Shown here: positions 1 to 47,070 of the stretch, in pieces
Layout of the letters: each line of letters starts with the position of its first letter
Position numbering within the stretch: position 1 is the first letter of the stretch
Origin: Synechococcus sp. RCC307
GTDB taxonomy: Bacteria; Cyanobacteriota; Cyanobacteriia; PCC-6307; Cyanobiaceae
Direction: 5' to 3'
Assembly (NCBI GenBank): GCA_000063525.1
Contig: CT978603.1
Location: forward strand, 2,160,915-2,224,914
DNA: 64,000 nucleotides
Position numbers and translations under genes: made by a program
The notes under the pieces: model-generated
What the model was told of the DNA's origin: nothing
Database searches by the model: none
Seen by the model: the letters and a program-made list of their open reading frames with translations, nothing else

Positions 1-255
1 GCTGTATTTCTGAAACACCATGCCGCGATCTGGACCCGGACCCTGAACCGCTTGACCATCCACGCGAACCTGGCCTGAGCTCGGCTGCTCAAGACCCGCG
101 ATCAAGCGCAGGATCGTGCTCTTGCCCGAGCCTGAACTCCCCACCAAAGAGAGAAACTCGCCAGAGCGCAGAGCAAAGCTGATATCGCGCAACACCTCTT
201 TCCTGTGCTGACCCGAGCCAAAGGTTTTGCCGAGATGGCGGACCTGCAATTCCAT
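1..255 (-). CDS. ABC transporter ATPase, NitT/TauT type (partial, guanidine importer)
   Basis: Only the first 85 codons are in the window; the gene continues past the left edge. The start is the ATG at 255. The protein shows a Walker A motif GSSGSGKST near residues 40-48 and reaches the Q-loop (VFQK) at the very edge. It would be the cytoplasmic energy subunit for the permease and binding protein encoded immediately upstream (only 3 bases separate it from the permease stop). Synechocystis has the same gene order behind its guanidine hydrolase gene, which suggests guanidine as substrate; the transporter family itself (nitrate, taurine, thiamine-precursor importers) does not fix the substrate. 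Confidence 0.88.
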   Translation of the reverse strand, partial: MELQVRHLGKTFGSGQHRKEVLRDISFALRSGEFLSLVGSSGSGKSTILRLIAGLEQPSSGQVRVDGQAVQGPGPDRGMVFQKYS

Positions 256-258
256 CGT

Positions 259-1077
259 TTACAGAGCCCAGCGGCACGACAACCGCAACAACAGACGGAA
301 GCCCATATCGATCGCAAAGCCAATCAAGCCCAGCACGATCAACTCGGCAAAGATCTGATCCGTGCGGAAGAAACGCTGCGCCAGCTGAATGCGTTTGCCC
401 AAGCCCACCTCAGCAGCCACCAATTCGGCCACAACAACCAAGTTCCATGAGGTGGCGATGTTGATGCGCAGGGTGTCGATGATGCTGGGCAAGCTGTAGC
501 GCGCCACCACCTGCACCAACACCTGACGGCCGCGGCCACCCAGGGTGAGGGTGGTTTCAATCAACTCTTTGGGAACGAACTTGACGGCATCCATCACCAT
601 CAAGACGTTGAAATAAACAGTGCCCAGAAAAATCAGCGCAATCTTGGGCTCTTCACCTATCCCCAAATAGATGATCAACAGGGGAATGAACGCCGCGGCC
701 GGCATGTAGCGCAGCATCGCGATCAAGGGCTCACACAGGGCGCAGATCGCGGGATACACACCCATGCAGATGCCCAAGGGCACAGCCACGAGCGTGGCCA
801 AGAAGAACCCGGCAAACACCCGGCCGGTGCTGGCCACGATGTCCTGGAACAGGATCCCCTCCCGTGCCATCGAGGCCAGCGACTCCAGCACCGCCGCTGG
901 AGACGGCAAAAATTTGCCGTCCACCAGTTCCAGGGCACTGATCACCGTCCACAGCAATAGCGGGATCAGCAGGGAAGACACCTGCAAACCGCTGCGCACC
1001 AACGGTGATGGAGTGGCTCCAATCGACAGCAATGGCAGGGGCTTAGCGCCCCCGCCATCCGTTGCTGACGCCACCAT
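259..1077 (-). CDS. ABC transporter permease, NitT/TauT (SsuC-like) family
   Basis: A 272-residue inner-membrane permease with a proline-rich N-terminal tail of about 25 residues and about six hydrophobic segments. The binding-protein-dependent transport signature with an EAA-like loop lies near residues 165-195 (TLTLGGRGRQVLVQVV region). The length fits SsuC/TauC permeases. The start ATG overlaps the stop of the upstream binding protein by one base (TAATG), indicating translational coupling. With the neighbouring ATPase and lipoprotein it forms a complete importer in the gdmH-hypA-hypB operon, so guanidine uptake is the most likely role; this is inference from context. Confidence 0.9.
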   Translation of the reverse strand: MVASATDGGGAKPLPLLSIGATPSPLVRSGLQVSSLLIPLLLWTVISALELVDGKFLPSPAAVLESLASMAREGILFQDIVASTGRVFAGFFLATLVAVPLGICMGVYPAICALCEPLIAMLRYMPAAAFIPLLIIYLGIGEEPKIALIFLGTVYFNVLMVMDAVKFVPKELIETTLTLGGRGRQVLVQVVARYSLPSIIDTLRINIATSWNLVVVAELVAAEVGLGKRIQLAQRFFRTDQIFAELIVLGLIGFAIDMGFRLLLRLSCRWAL

Positions 1078-2075
1078 TAGGACGCAGCGATGGTCTTGAT
1101 GAAGGAGGGATCAAACAGGTTGCTCATGTCGGGCTTTTCAGGAATGAAGCCCACGGAGACCATGAAGTCAGCCATCTTCTGGGCGGCATAGGGCATGTGT
1201 TGCATGCCATCGCCATCACTGAAGGCCTCCAGGTTCTGATCGACCGAGAAGAAGGTGGTGCCGGCCTTGTACTGCTCGTACTCAGCGGTCGGGATGCCAG
1301 CACGCTTGGCCATGATTTGCTCCGATTTTTCGGGGTTGGCAGCCATGAACTCGCGCACATCCCACCAGGTCTTGACGATCTTCTGAACATCCTCAGGGCG
1401 TTCTTTGATCAGATCACCACTGACAGTCAGCAAGTCAGGGATTGCACCGGGGTATTCCTTTGAGCTGGCGATGACATGGGCGCCGTCACGCTGCATGGCG
1501 GTGCCGGTGTAAGGAGGGAACGCGCCAACGGCATCCACCTTGCCGGCAGCAAATGCCGTCGCAGCCTGATCGGTCGGCATGCCCTTGATGATCACGTCAT
1601 CACGGCTGAGGCCGACATCACGCAAAGCCAGGCTCAGCAGGAAATCATCCACAACACCCTCTTCAACGGCAACCGTTTTGCCTTTGAGATCGGTGATGGT
1701 TTCGATCGCCTTATCAGCAATGATTTGATCATTGCCAGCTGAATTGTCATTGACCAGAACAACAACTTCGCCGCCATTCTCTCCGGGCAAGAAGGAGATG
1801 GTGTCATTCAGAGTTTGAGAGTTGCCATCAATTTTGCCGGCGGCAAACGTTTCCATCGATTGGACATAGCCGTCAAACCATTTCATCTCAACATTGACGC
1901 CATTCTTTTCAAATAGCTTCTCCTCAACGGCAATAGCCCAAGGCCACCAACCAGCCCAATTGCTGTAACCCAAAACAATGGGCTCACCGCCAATGGATGT
2001 GGAAGGCTTGGAGCAAGCCACAGCCAACACCACCGCCAAGCCGGCAAATAAGAGATTTCGAAGTTGTTTGGTCAT
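1077..2075 (-). CDS. ABC transporter substrate-binding lipoprotein, NitT/TauT family
   Basis: A 332-residue periplasmic binding protein. The start at 2075 is preferred because it gives a clean lipoprotein signal: MTKQ, a hydrophobic stretch, then lipobox LAVAC with Cys at about residue 21. A longer reading frame to 2174 would bury this signal behind a polar extension that overlaps hypB. The mature part begins with IVLGYSNWAGWWPW, typical of NMT1/ThiY-like periplasmic proteins. It sits between hypB and the permease gene. The match in gene order to the Synechocystis guanidine operon suggests it captures guanidine or a related cation, but the ligand cannot be read from the sequence. Confidence 0.88.
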   Translation of the reverse strand: MTKQLRNLLFAGLAVVLAVACSKPSTSIGGEPIVLGYSNWAGWWPWAIAVEEKLFEKNGVNVEMKWFDGYVQSMETFAAGKIDGNSQTLNDTISFLPGENGGEVVVLVNDNSAGNDQIIADKAIETITDLKGKTVAVEEGVVDDFLLSLALRDVGLSRDDVIIKGMPTDQAATAFAAGKVDAVGAFPPYTGTAMQRDGAHVIASSKEYPGAIPDLLTVSGDLIKERPEDVQKIVKTWWDVREFMAANPEKSEQIMAKRAGIPTAEYEQYKAGTTFFSVDQNLEAFSDGDGMQHMPYAAQKMADFMVSVGFIPEKPDMSNLFDPSFIKTIAAS

Positions 2076-2110
2076 GACACTGCAATAAGGACAACACGCA
2101 AGAACGCTGC

Positions 2111-2809
2111 TCAGGCCATGGCCAGAGCAGGTTCCAAGGTGTTTTGGCGAGCCGATCGCAGCCAGGCATGCCAAACATCGATGCCCTCACCAGTGAGAGC
2201 GGACACCGAAATCACACTGGCTTTGGGATTGATGCTGTTGATGTTGCGGCGAAAGGTCTCAAGCTCAACCGGCAGATACGGCAGCAGATCAATCTTGGTG
2301 ATGAGGACCACATCAGCCTGGCGAAACATCAGCGGGTACTTCAACGGCTTGTCCTCACCTTCAGTGACACTGAGAAGCGCCACTTTGTGATGTTCACCCA
2401 CTTCAAATTCAGCAGGGCAAACCAAATTCCCCACGTTTTCAACCCACAGCAGATCCAGCTGATTTGGGTTGAGCCGCTCACGCAACAACTTCAGGCCGCC
2501 ACTGACCATGGCGGCATCGAGATGGCAGGAGCGCCCGGTGGTAATCGGCACCACCGGAATGCCCACAGCCTCCAAGCGCTCCGCATCCAATTGGGTGGTC
2601 ATGTCGCCTTCCAAGACAGCCATGGACCACTCCTGAGCCAACTGAGGTAAGGAGCGCTCAAGCAATGCTGTTTTGCCCGCCCCGGGGCTACTCATCACAT
2701 TGAGGGCCAGCACCTGCCAAGCCTCAAAGTGCTCACGGTTGTGCTCGGCTTGGTGCTGATTGGCCGCCAGCAAATTCATGCCGAGGCGATCTTCTAAAGG
2801 CAAATGCAT
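2111..2809 (-). CDS. hypB: HypB-like nickel-insertion GTPase
   Basis: A 232-residue SIMIBI-class GTPase. Walker A SSPGAGKT lies at residues 40-47, the HypB-type metal motif SCHLDA near residue 95, and a TKIDLLP guanine-specificity motif near residue 175. No histidine-rich N-terminal nickel store is present. HypB normally helps load nickel into [NiFe]-hydrogenase, but no hydrogenase gene is seen here. The gene lies directly after hypA and the ureohydrolase gene, the arrangement known for the nickel-dependent guanidine hydrolase of Synechocystis, so its likely client is the GdmH protein encoded at 3246-4436. Confidence 0.92.
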
Positions 2810-2839
2810 GACAAGAGAGGTTGGAGAACTGTTTTGCCT

Positions 2840-3241
2840 TCAGACGCGCTGGAGCGATAGAGCTTGTGACTCAACAGCGCTCTGAAGGGACGTGCGGTAG
2901 TCGATGCTGCGAATTCGCAATTCGCGGCCACTGACGATCTCCTCAAGAGGGTGATCGCAGCAGGGAGAGCGGTAAGCACCCTCAGGAGTTGGGCTGTAGG
3001 TGCCATTGCAGACCAAGCAACGACCCACAAAGGGGATCTCTTCGATCTGCAGCTGCGCGCCATCAAGCCAGCTGCCAGCAACAGCCGCCTGAAAGGTGAA
3101 GCGCAGCTGCTCAGGCTCAACGCAGGTGAAGCGGCCCACATCCAAATGGATGGTGTCCACCATCGCCTGAGGCGATGCCTGCTCCTCGCGCCATTGCTGA
3201 AGAGCCAGGAGCAGGCACTTGGTCATGTCGACCTCATGCAT
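2840..3241 (-). CDS. hypA: HypA-like nickel metallochaperone
   Basis: A 133-residue HypA-family protein. It starts with MHE, whose His2 is the nickel ligand in HypA. A structural zinc site is formed by CLVC near residues 75-78 and a CC pair near residues 94-95, a slightly unusual spacing and arrangement for the second cysteine pair (usually CxxC). The gene starts 4 bases after the gdmH stop codon and is followed by hypB, so the three are co-transcribed. The expected role is delivery of Ni2+, with HypB, to the guanidine hydrolase rather than to a hydrogenase. Confidence 0.9.
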   Translation of the reverse strand: MHEVDMTKCLLLALQQWREEQASPQAMVDTIHLDVGRFTCVEPEQLRFTFQAAVAGSWLDGAQLQIEEIPFVGRCLVCNGTYSPTPEGAYRSPCCDHPLEEIVSGRELRIRSIDYRTSLQSAVESQALSLQRV

Positions 3242-3245
3242 GGGA

Positions 3246-4436
3246 TCACCTCCAGGCCTGATCCACCTGCATGTTGCAAGTGGGGTTGATCCAACTGGGC
3301 TTCTCTTTGCGGGGCAGCTGGCCGCTCACCACCAGGTGGGCCATGGTGTCGCAGATCACCCGCGCGGCCATCAGCGATGTCATGTCACTGATGTCATAGG
3401 GAGGGGAAACCTCCACCAACTCCAGGCCACAGACCGGCACATTGCGGACGATCAGCTCGAGCAACTTCAGGGCTTCGCGGGGCAACAACCCCCCTGGCTC
3501 TGGCCAACCGGTGCCTGGAACAAAACCGGCATCGATGCAGTCGATGTCAAAGGAGATGTAGACGCAATCGGTGCCATCGGTGGCCCGTTCAATGGCATAG
3601 CGGGCGGCTGCCTCCAGACCCATCTCGGTGATGTCGGTGACCGTGAGCACATTGGTGCCGCGCTCACGGCAAACCTTCACCCCCTCGCGGGGCACTTGCC
3701 AGCCACCAATCCCCAGCTGCACCAGGTTCTGAGCCGGTGCGTTGGCCATGTTCGTGGCATGGAACCACGGACAGGTGTGCATCCGTTCATCGAGATCGAT
3801 CTCTTGGGTGTCGACATGGCGATCGAAGTGGATGATCCCCACCTTCTTGTCGCCGAGGTGTCGGCAAACCCCACGGACTGTTGGAAAACCAATGGAGTGA
3901 TCACCACCCAAGAGGATTGGGAAGGCCCCGCTGGCAAAGACGTGGGCGACCCCCTTGGAGATCTGATCAAAGCTTTTCTCGTTGTTGGCTGGGATGGTGA
4001 AGACATCACCCACATCACAGAGGGTGATTTGCTCGCGCAGATCCACACCCATCTCGTAGTTGTACGGGGTGTAGAGCGCTGAAATCCTGCGAATTCCCTG
4101 AGGCCCAAAGCGCGTTCCTGGGCGATAGGTGGTGCCGCAATCGTGGGGAATGCCCACCACCGCCACGTCAAATTCGCCGACCCGGTTCACGTCCTCGAGA
4201 TAGGGCGCCTTCATGAAGGTGTTGATGCCCGCGTAATGGGGCAACTCACCGCGAGAAAAGGTGGAGATATTGCGGTCCACGATGCTGTGGGCCGCTTCCA
4301 ATCCCAGGCGCTTGGCCTGATCCACCTCTTGCTGCCATCCGGTGAGGGGCAGGCGTTGCTCTTTTTCCAGGGCCGCCATCCCCTCACTGGGATGGCTGCG
4401 CTCGAAGCCCCCAGGGGAGCCACTTGTGGACGTCAT
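3246..4436 (-). CDS. gdmH: Guanidine hydrolase (nickel-dependent ureohydrolase family)
   Basis: A 396-residue protein of the arginase/agmatinase superfamily. Metal-ligand motifs are complete: GGDHSIG at 177-183, FDRHVD at 204-209 (a variant of the usual DAHxD, with Arg for Ala), and SFDIDCID at 295-302. Classical agmatinases are about 300 residues; the extra N-terminal ~80 residues and total length match the Ni2+-dependent guanidine hydrolase GdmH (Synechocystis Sll1077, formerly called agmatinase SpeB2), which splits guanidine into urea and ammonia. The context is decisive: hypA and hypB follow within 4 and 30 bases, an ABC importer follows them, and a guanidine-I riboswitch lies in the leader. 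An internal Met at residue 20 is an alternative start. Confidence 0.92.
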   Translation of the reverse strand: MTSTSGSPGGFERSHPSEGMAALEKEQRLPLTGWQQEVDQAKRLGLEAAHSIVDRNISTFSRGELPHYAGINTFMKAPYLEDVNRVGEFDVAVVGIPHDCGTTYRPGTRFGPQGIRRISALYTPYNYEMGVDLREQITLCDVGDVFTIPANNEKSFDQISKGVAHVFASGAFPILLGGDHSIGFPTVRGVCRHLGDKKVGIIHFDRHVDTQEIDLDERMHTCPWFHATNMANAPAQNLVQLGIGGWQVPREGVKVCRERGTNVLTVTDITEMGLEAAARYAIERATDGTDCVYISFDIDCIDAGFVPGTGWPEPGGLLPREALKLLELIVRNVPVCGLELVEVSPPYDISDMTSLMAARVICDTMAHLVVSGQLPRKEKPSWINPTCNMQVDQAWR

Positions 4437-4449
4437 TGCAGGGGAGTGC

Positions 4450-4565
4450 GAGTGAGTGCGGTCTCCCAGGCTTTTGTTCCACCGACGAACCGGAAAAGCT
4501 GGTTGGAAACAGTTGGCTCACTCACCCAGACGGGGCGGTTGGAGCGCTGGTTTCCACAAACCGCC
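4450..4565 (-). ncRNA. Guanidine-I (ykkC) riboswitch in the gdmH leader
   Basis: Read on the minus strand, the leader contains CGG-T-GGAAC followed by AAAAGCCTGGGAGA (the latter at 4462-4475). This aligns closely with the hallmark 3' block of the guanidine-I/ykkC class. A 5' hairpin is formed by GGCGGTT (4559-4565) and AACCGCC (4534-4540), and GAGTGAG (4517-4523) pairs with CTCACTC (4450-4456) with two more pairs outward. The element ends about 15 bases before the gdmH ATG, so control of translation initiation or a short attenuator is possible; no clear U-tract terminator is visible. Exact boundaries are estimates. Confidence 0.75.
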
Positions 4566-4599
4566 TATCCAATCTCCGGCTGCGATAGACCCCAATGCG

Positions 4600-4613
4600 G
4601 TAACAGGCGATAC
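4600..4613 (-). promoter_or_regulatory. NtcA-binding site upstream of the gdmH operon
   Basis: A perfect GTA-N8-TAC palindrome (GTATCGCCTGTTAC on the minus strand). An extended -10-like hexamer GAGATT (matching xAN3T) begins 23 bases downstream, the spacing of NtcA-activated promoters. The predicted transcript would start near 4565, just at the 5' edge of the riboswitch. It lies in the 191-base gap between cobA and gdmH, pointing only toward gdmH. Confidence 0.65.
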
Positions 4614-6343: not shown

Positions 6344-6357
6344 GTAGCAACGGTTAC
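6344..6357 (+). promoter_or_regulatory. NtcA-binding site of the nirA promoter
   Basis: Perfect GTA-N8-TAC (GTAGCAACGGTTAC). A -10-like TTAAGT/TAAGTA begins 22-23 bases downstream at 6380-6386, giving a predicted start near 6393 and a leader of about 70 bases before the nirA ATG. This is the arrangement of class II NtcA-activated cyanobacterial nirA promoters. Confidence 0.8.
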
Positions 6358-10574: not shown

Positions 10575-10588
10575 GTAGCGGTTGATAC
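10575..10588 (+). promoter_or_regulatory. NtcA-binding site between cynS and the TrpD2-like gene
   Basis: Perfect GTA-N8-TAC (GTAGCGGTTGATAC). On the plus strand a CAGGAT hexamer (xAN3T) lies 23 bases downstream, 25 bases before the ATG at 10642. On the minus strand AAGCGT (also xAN3T) lies 23 bases away, about 100 bases before the cynS ATG. The site could serve either gene or both. Confidence 0.6.
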
Positions 10589-16540: not shown

Positions 16541-16554
16541 GTACTTAATGATAC
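16541..16554 (-). promoter_or_regulatory. NtcA-binding site between nrtP and mobA
   Basis: Perfect GTA-N8-TAC (GTATCATTAAGTAC on the minus strand). Toward nrtP, TCCAAT lies 22 bases downstream as a partial -10 element (T and final T conserved). The nrtP ATG is 113 bases away. Toward mobA (ATG 16629) the spacing is 74 bases but no good -10 was found. Confidence 0.7.
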
Positions 16555-18247: not shown

Positions 18248-18317
18248 AGGATTTAGGTGAGAACACCGATGCCAATTGGCGCCTGAGCCGATCAAGCTGT
18301 AGCAAAAGATACGGTTG

Positions 18318-46613: not shown

Positions 46614-47070
46614 GATTCCCCTTTGGCAACGGCTCCTGGGCTTGCTCGCCTACCTATTGCCCTGGTCAGACGCCCTCAGCTTTGGGCGTGAGCTCTACAA
46701 CCTCTTTCCCTGGATCTCGTACCTGGCCCTACCGGCCACACCGGTGTTGCTGCTGGAGCGCTCGATCCCCTTTGGAGGTTTTCTGCTCTTCCTGGTGCTG
46801 TTCCTGGTGGTGGTGCGCAACCCAAACGTGCCCTACTACCTGCGCTTCAACGTGCTGCAAGCGATCTTGCTGGACATCCTCTTGGTGGTGCTGGCCTTGG
46901 CCTTCAACGTCTTGCTCAGCCCCTTGGGCAACAGCCTGATGATCCGCACCCTCAACAACACCGTCTTCATTGGTGCCCTGGTGTTGGTGCTCTATGCCTC
47001 CATCCAGTGCATCCGCGGCAAAGAAGCTGATCTGCCCACCCTCTCGGACGCGGTGCGAATGCAGCTCTAA
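46606..47070 (+). CDS. Tic20 family membrane protein
   Basis: A 154-residue protein with four predicted transmembrane helices, beginning IPLWQRLLGLLAYLLPWSDAL. The order (LLAYLLPWSD, then RNPNVPYYLRFNVLQAILLDI, then a C-terminal helix) is characteristic of the Tic20/Ycf60 family. The chloroplast homologue is part of the protein import translocon; the cyanobacterial role is unsettled. Translation is coupled to aroE by an 8-base overlap. Confidence 0.9.
   Translation: MAEIPLWQRLLGLLAYLLPWSDALSFGRELYNLFPWISYLALPATPVLLLERSIPFGGFLLFLVLFLVVVRNPNVPYYLRFNVLQAILLDILLVVLALAFNVLLSPLGNSLMIRTLNNTVFIGALVLVLYASIQCIRGKEADLPTLSDAVRMQL

Follow-up and report, generated by a model that had tools for sequence, protein, structure and literature searches.

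Probable guanidine-assimilation operon of Synechococcus sp. RCC307 with a perfect NtcA-type box and an altered guanidine-I aptamer, probably switched on mainly by NtcA

How is a guanidine operon controlled when the guanidine aptamer in front of it is unrecognisable at the usual cut-off? The question is raised by 64,000 nt of Synechococcus sp. RCC307 (contig CT978603.1, positions 2,160,915-2,224,914; genome of 2,224,914 bases in one contig), referred to as the window. An operon headed by gdmH, the gene of a guanidine hydrolase-type ureohydrolase, lies at its left edge, with hypA, hypB and the genes of an ATP-binding cassette (ABC) importer. It is probably a guanidine-assimilation operon, turned on chiefly by NtcA when nitrogen runs short, in which guanidine sensing has likely been lost. 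Control mainly by NtcA is predicted because the aptamer departs at 14 of 43 positions from what is invariant in 62 relatives.

At the Rfam cut-offs no RNA family was found across the whole window. A guanidine-I (ykkC) aptamer directly in front of gdmH emerged only in a permissive search, at 24.0 bits, below the RF00442 gathering score of 63. The aptamer of a sister genome, G070, scores 20.6 bits, and that of the genus-mate G097, at the same site on the cobA/nirA side, 80.3 bits. The sister is represented by two contigs of equal length and the same gene layout, treated as one genome: L005 (metagenome-assembled genome, Synechococcus sp. SW22112_bin_11) and L120 (G070). The 62 reference loci are non-Prochlorococcus and not independent of one another; they were chosen by CTAGGGTTCC, which makes up ten of the 43 positions, and the choice left out no other non-Prochlorococcus locus. 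Three core segments of the canonical aptamer are present in 62/62. The window keeps 29 of the 43 positions and L005 keeps 28 (15 changed), one change in each being an alignment gap. In 5U3G, guanidinium is reported to be contacted by two AG-bulge bases, G33 and A34, and by G63, G64 and G81; residue 79 also sits in the pocket (PMC11661666). Mapped by spacing and invariance, the AG-bulge G33-A34 would have turned from GA into CU in the window and into CC in L005. Of four P3 pairs in the Rfam alignment, read by eye in the window aptamer, two are broken and one becomes G-U. Guanidine sensing by this leader is likely eroded or lost.

In the family survey (400 genomes; gdmH counted at E ≤ 1e-100, aptamer cut-off 63 bits), the aptamer is over the cut-off in 110 genomes (lowest score 68.3) and gdmH is present in 125. 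By hand tally the latter comprise 108 with an aptamer over the cut-off, RCC307 with 24.0 bits, and 16 with none over it: G070, G074 (partial gdmH), G185, G272 and 12 of genus g18. Upstream regions available for comparison number 81 (80 loci and the window): 62 have the canonical core, 17 are without it and two, the window and L005, are altered. The 17 core-less regions are all named Prochlorococcus (L068-L084; L084, with only 72 bases upstream, is too short to judge). Riboswitch loss as a family-wide trait is ruled out, 62 of the 81 regions keeping the core. Absence of the aptamer is not unique to the RCC307 lineage; the altered remnant was seen only there, in the window and its sister. Six genomes of the genus were examined and three have gdmH; the three others are 74-90% complete, and absence of gdmH from them is uncertain. 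The GdmH tree pairs the window with L005 and places G097 as the next branch (support 98/96), so that one erosion after the split from G097 would be the simplest history. Relocation as the cause of erosion is unsupported: the G097 operon also sits beside cobA/nirA, and its aptamer is canonical.

Two of the g18 genomes, G393 and G399, have an aptamer over the cut-off on a different contig from gdmH (L123:5547-5642 and L124:4960-5055, both minus strand). At one of these two loci it precedes another ABC-type binding-protein gene (L123:4496-5524); nearby genes by eye resemble nitrile hydratase subunits. In G185 and G272 (L121, L122), gdmH-hypA-hypB occur at another site; the 15 kb read there hold no importer genes, and the family survey gave no aptamer match.

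Upstream of the altered aptamer, 63 bases from its first core C, stands a perfect NtcA-type box, GTAN8TAC (GTATCGCCTGTTAC). Its outer edge coincides with position 4613, the end of the stretch covered by the original prediction. NtcA-activated promoters carry such a box 22-23 bases before a TAN3T-like -10 element. A candidate -10 element, GAGATT, follows the window box after 23 bases and keeps the A and last T of this pattern, not the first T. Among the relatives, 52/52 testable loci have a box of no more than one mismatch located 58-62 bases ahead of the core of the aptamer, with about 2/52 expected by chance (an estimate, 19/4096 per position over ten positions). Ten of the 62 canonical loci, with at most 59 bases upstream in the extract and no box of at most one mismatch, were excluded. 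A -10-like element stands 22 bases after the relatives' box, with A in 52/52 and T in 51/52. The whole window holds six perfect GTAN8TAC boxes, against 0.48 expected by chance; besides the two in Table 1 they are at 10575-10588, 16541-16554, 18299-18312 and 46719-46732.

From these positions NtcA would bind at 4600-4613, and the transcript is predicted to start near the 5' end of the aptamer. In most relatives, an NtcA-type box and a guanidine aptamer near the predicted transcription start would together act as an AND gate. Of this gate, the RCC307 lineage has kept the NtcA-type half intact, and the ligand gate of the guanidine half is likely lost. For the Synechocystis operon, repression by ammonium is reported (PMC10094980), which fits nitrogen control. 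A fixed phase of NtcA box and aptamer general to cyanobacteria is unsupported: of 30 class-level loci, five have a box (no more than one mismatch) at 57-65 bases, and four of these five belong to RCC307's family; six others have it at 66-75 bases. These 30 are the best-scoring aptamers, unfiltered for gdmH; L139 and L147 were anchored on a different motif. The literature searched gave no paper on NtcA at a gdmH promoter and no description of the RCC307 control region. Itzenhauser et al. 2025 (PNAS), on cyanobacterial guanidine assimilation and riboswitch regulation by its title, the only part seen, may bear on this region and may cover NtcA control or riboswitch variation.

Several observations weigh against loss of guanidine sensing with NtcA as the main switch. 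The altered aptamer form is present in two genomes only. The perfect box is not special to the RCC307 lineage, being perfect in 9/52 relatives, and the window -10 element sits one base further from the box than theirs (23 vs 22). The P3-side pocket guanines G63, G64, G79 and G81 (5U3G numbering) appear to be kept in the window aptamer. Conservation between the sisters is strong in the 3' part of the leader: window and G070 differ at 1/78 positions from there to the start codon, against 62/396 gdmH third positions (binomial 2.6e-5) and 7/66 of the upstream spacer (0.0016). The 5' half of the leader is not clearly constrained (4/47, p 0.12). The binomial tests are rough, their rates being taken from third positions and spacer. 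Because of the conserved 3' part, some retained function would fit better than free decay.

Such a function could be the original one. In that case the leader would still work as a guanidine riboswitch in spite of its unusual core, and control would be as in the relatives. The pocket guanines kept in the mapping made here and the conserved 3' part are in keeping with this, as is the retained GGGAG/CTCCC complementarity beside the gdmH start codon (CTCC or CTCCC lies within 55 bases of the aptamer in 47/62 relatives). A working riboswitch is nevertheless unlikely in view of the 14 changed invariant positions, which by mapping include the AG-bulge, the state of P3, and a score of 24.0 bits where the minimum among the 110 genomes over the cut-off is 68.3.

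The function could also be a new one. In both altered leaders a long first hairpin is retained, and both are predicted to form a second one, absent from the canonical fold, in which CCAGCUUUU pairs with AAAAGCCUGG in the lowest-energy structure of each. The riboswitch may be in mid-conversion, with the ligand gate gone, the NtcA box perfect and the 3' half refolded as a hairpin with a different regulatory function for the guanidine operon; the 3' half would then be near-unchanged between sisters because it carries that function. This is doubtful. A variant RNA element for another ligand or signal, using the refolded second hairpin, would likewise draw on the conserved 3' part and on the hairpin common to both leaders, but is improbable: neither fold energy stands out (z -0.80 and -0.96), only two sequences are at hand, and no other Rfam family scores credibly in the leader. 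The same folding program missed the canonical structure of two intact aptamers, and its folds are weak evidence. Activation mainly by NtcA, with guanidine sensing lost, is retained here as the probable reading.

That the operon serves guanidine depends on the identity of its first product. The gdmH product matches 7ESR/7OI1, the Synechocystis guanidine hydrolase GdmH, with 764.8 bits, 9FEK, the guanidinase of Nitrospira inopinata, with 566.8 bits, and the next solved protein with 170.2 bits. It is identical to Synechocystis GdmH (7ESR chain) at 321 of 382 aligned residues (84.0%) and to the N. inopinata enzyme at 236 of 363 (65%). Identity is 25-33% to three agmatinases, a guanidinobutyrase, a proclavaminate amidinohydrolase and the genome's own second ureohydrolase. 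Four positions are named as marking guanidinases (PMC11410670); T103, H220, W311 and E342 are the equivalents of Thr105, His222, Trp313 and Glu344 of the N. inopinata enzyme, and all are kept. This mapping takes the numbering of the chain and of the paper to differ by two, as deduced from Trp313/Trp305. Thr103 and Trp311 set the protein apart from all six comparators, which have Ser/Gly and Thr/Ser there, respectively. The phylogeny was examined for a position within the agmatinases. In a tree of 20 rows the protein falls instead inside a GdmH clade of 14 (support 100/99), apart from agmatinases and the second ureohydrolase; the outgroup branches are very long, and only the clade itself is meaningful. 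Assignment as an agmatinase or another guanidino-acid hydrolase would rest on the NCBIfam agmatinase cut-off, which GdmH passes (179.2 vs 174.3 bits). It is extremely improbable and is rejected on identity, residues and tree; the genome also has a separate ureohydrolase near agmatinases. The passed cut-off shows why such genes get misnamed. The guanidine-hydrolase type proposed in the original prediction is borne out by the bit scores, the clade and the identity.

Table 1. Features of the gdmH operon and its control region (window positions unless a locus is named; features in the order of transcription, the nirA box last)
Feature	Position	Strand	Remarks
NtcA-type box	4600..4613	-	perfect
Putative -10 element	4571..4576	-	GAGATT
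Diverged guanidine-I (ykkC) aptamer	4461..4561	-	RF00442, full-length match 1-107
gdmH, Ni-dependent guanidine hydrolase-type ureohydrolase	3246..4436	-	396 aa; Arginase family 263.5 bits
hypA-type nickel chaperone	2840..3241	-	133 aa; PF01155
hypB-type GTPase	2111..2809	-	232 aa; TIGR00073 277.3 bits (cut-off 121.2)
Importer substrate-binding lipoprotein	1077..2075	-	TIGR01728 SsuA_fam 276 bits (cut-off 163.5)
Importer permease	259..1077	-	272 aa; PF00528 BPD_transp_1 68.5 bits; start overlaps previous stop by 1 base
Importer ATPase	1..255	-	first 85 residues in window; ABC_tran 122.4 bits; remainder at L003:8403-8915
Rieske oxygenase, seventh gene	L003:7348-8403		outside window; overlaps importer ATPase by 1 base
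NtcA-type box upstream of nirA	6344..6357	+	perfect GTAN8TAC; second box of the same cluster

The genes named in the original prediction for positions 1..4613 (gdmH, hypA, hypB and an ABC importer) are all present there on the minus strand. Its account of operon extent and control was incomplete: the rest of the ATPase gene, the Rieske gene and the altered RNA element had been overlooked. The complete ATPase gene, L003:8403-9170, reaches beyond the left edge of the window (L003:8916 = window 1). Spacing down the operon is 4, 30 and 35 bases, an overlap of 1, 3 bases and an overlap of 1; because the gaps are short or overlapping, the seven genes from gdmH to the Rieske gene are likely a single transcription unit. 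On the other flank are cobA and nirA. The start of the substrate-binding protein was placed at the ATG at 2075, inside the listed open reading frame, because the listed TTG at 2174 would overlap hypB and a lipoprotein-like signal follows the ATG. The best NCBIfam match of the permease is TauC (143.5 bits, below the cut-off of 342). The hypA product passes the Pfam cut-off (90 vs 28.9 bits) and misses that of NCBIfam hypA (81.6 vs 88.1 bits).

Across 87 loci gdmH is found in 87, hypA in 87, hypB in 86, the binding protein in 79, the permease in 77, the ATPase in 76 and the Rieske gene in 60; at least two genomes appear twice, and many loci are cut by contig ends. Only three of the 87 have cobA and nirA beside the operon, from two genomes of RCC307's genus (G070 twice, G097 once). 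Many freshwater-type Cyanobium/Synechococcus loci have a gap holding an extra gene between hypB and the binding protein. The one read, at L016:9282-10658, by eye resembles a glutamine-synthetase-like enzyme. The binding protein is about 42-48% identical to that of the window in freshwater-type operons and 77-87% in the marine type and Prochlorococcus. In L010, a contig labelled Acidiferrobacteraceae, gdmH falls among those of Synechococcus and is 91% identical to that of the window; a binning error is probable.

Use of the nickel pair was judged from the rest of the genome. HypA is single-copy (sole PF01155 match), and a genome search for the NiFe-hydrogenase large subunit, PF00374, gave no match. 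On both grounds the hypAB pair is probably dedicated to GdmH, as originally proposed for Hyp proteins beside a ureohydrolase, and a role in hydrogenase maturation is disfavoured. A urease alpha domain is encoded at G000:C1:2151603-2151956 (G000, the RCC307 genome), some 7 kb from where the Rieske gene ends. With urease in the genome and no NiFe-hydrogenase match, a route from guanidine through urea to ammonium is a sound inference. The ABC importer would bring in guanidinium, HypA and HypB would load nickel into GdmH, GdmH would split guanidine into ammonium and urea, and urease would free two more ammonium from the urea.

The nearest solved relatives of the importer's binding protein are weak (SsuA 2X26, 45.4 bits), and the matches are at the level of the SsuA/TauABC family; guanidine(ium) is the presumed cargo. 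The Rieske product has carnitine monooxygenase as its nearest solved relative (83.1 bits), with demethylases lower down among many aromatic-ring oxygenases. Since demethylases are among these relatives, and since the Rieske gene overlaps that of the importer ATPase by one base, the main substrate might be an N-methylated guanidine, demethylated by the Rieske enzyme and then hydrolysed by GdmH. This is very unlikely. The Rieske similarity is weak and extends over roughly the first 200 residues, and the substrate of such enzymes is unreadable from sequence. The N. inopinata enzyme gave no urea from the other guanidino compounds tested, except a very minor amount from agmatine (PMC11410670), and Synechocystis uses guanidine via a six-gene operon without a listed Rieske gene. 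Guanidine itself is retained as the probable substrate of the pathway.

The operon has already been described in print, and RCC307 is a confirmed member. Synechocystis PCC 6803 sll1077-sll1082 (GdmH, GhaA, GhaB, ABC importer) comprises the same six genes in the same order, with an enzyme 84% identical (PMC8390497, PMC10094980, PMC12186494); degradation of guanidine by Sll1077 was reported by Wang et al. 2021 (PMC8390497). The Synechocystis operon has an upstream guanidine-I riboswitch, whereas the RCC307 aptamer is far below recognition, and in RCC307 an extra Rieske gene follows. The N. inopinata guanidinase is a homologous hexameric Ni/Mn enzyme (PMC11410670); its operon is riboswitch-controlled and has a predicted APC permease in place of the ABC importer (PMC12186494). 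Also close are Syn-eCAG_001 and Pro-eCAG_004 of marine picocyanobacteria, with speB2 (gdmH), hypA, hypB, a TauABC-like importer and, in most, the Rieske gene, as in RCC307 (PMC10119275). In the reference genomes of Synechococcus a ykkC riboswitch is placed directly ahead of the cluster (PMC10119275), unlike RCC307, where none is recognisable at the Rfam cut-off. Neither NtcA nor RCC307 occurs in the main text of that paper. For marine Synechococcus and Prochlorococcus, Doré et al. 2023 propose guanidine use, insertion of nickel (or another metal) by HypAB and TauABC-like import (PMC10119275). In its essentials the interpretation offered in the original prediction is sound, and it had been published before. 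Its suggestion of free guanidine as a marine nitrogen source is drawn from gene content, and the same step had been taken in PMC10119275.

What may be of use beyond this is the control region, in which relatives pair a fixed-phase NtcA-type promoter with a guanidine aptamer. In this genus an aptamer that is intact and one that is eroded occupy one chromosomal site, a natural experiment. The pair bears on whether such cells depend on sensing guanidine or scavenge it in any shortage of nitrogen, and on how an operon can be kept after losing its riboswitch.

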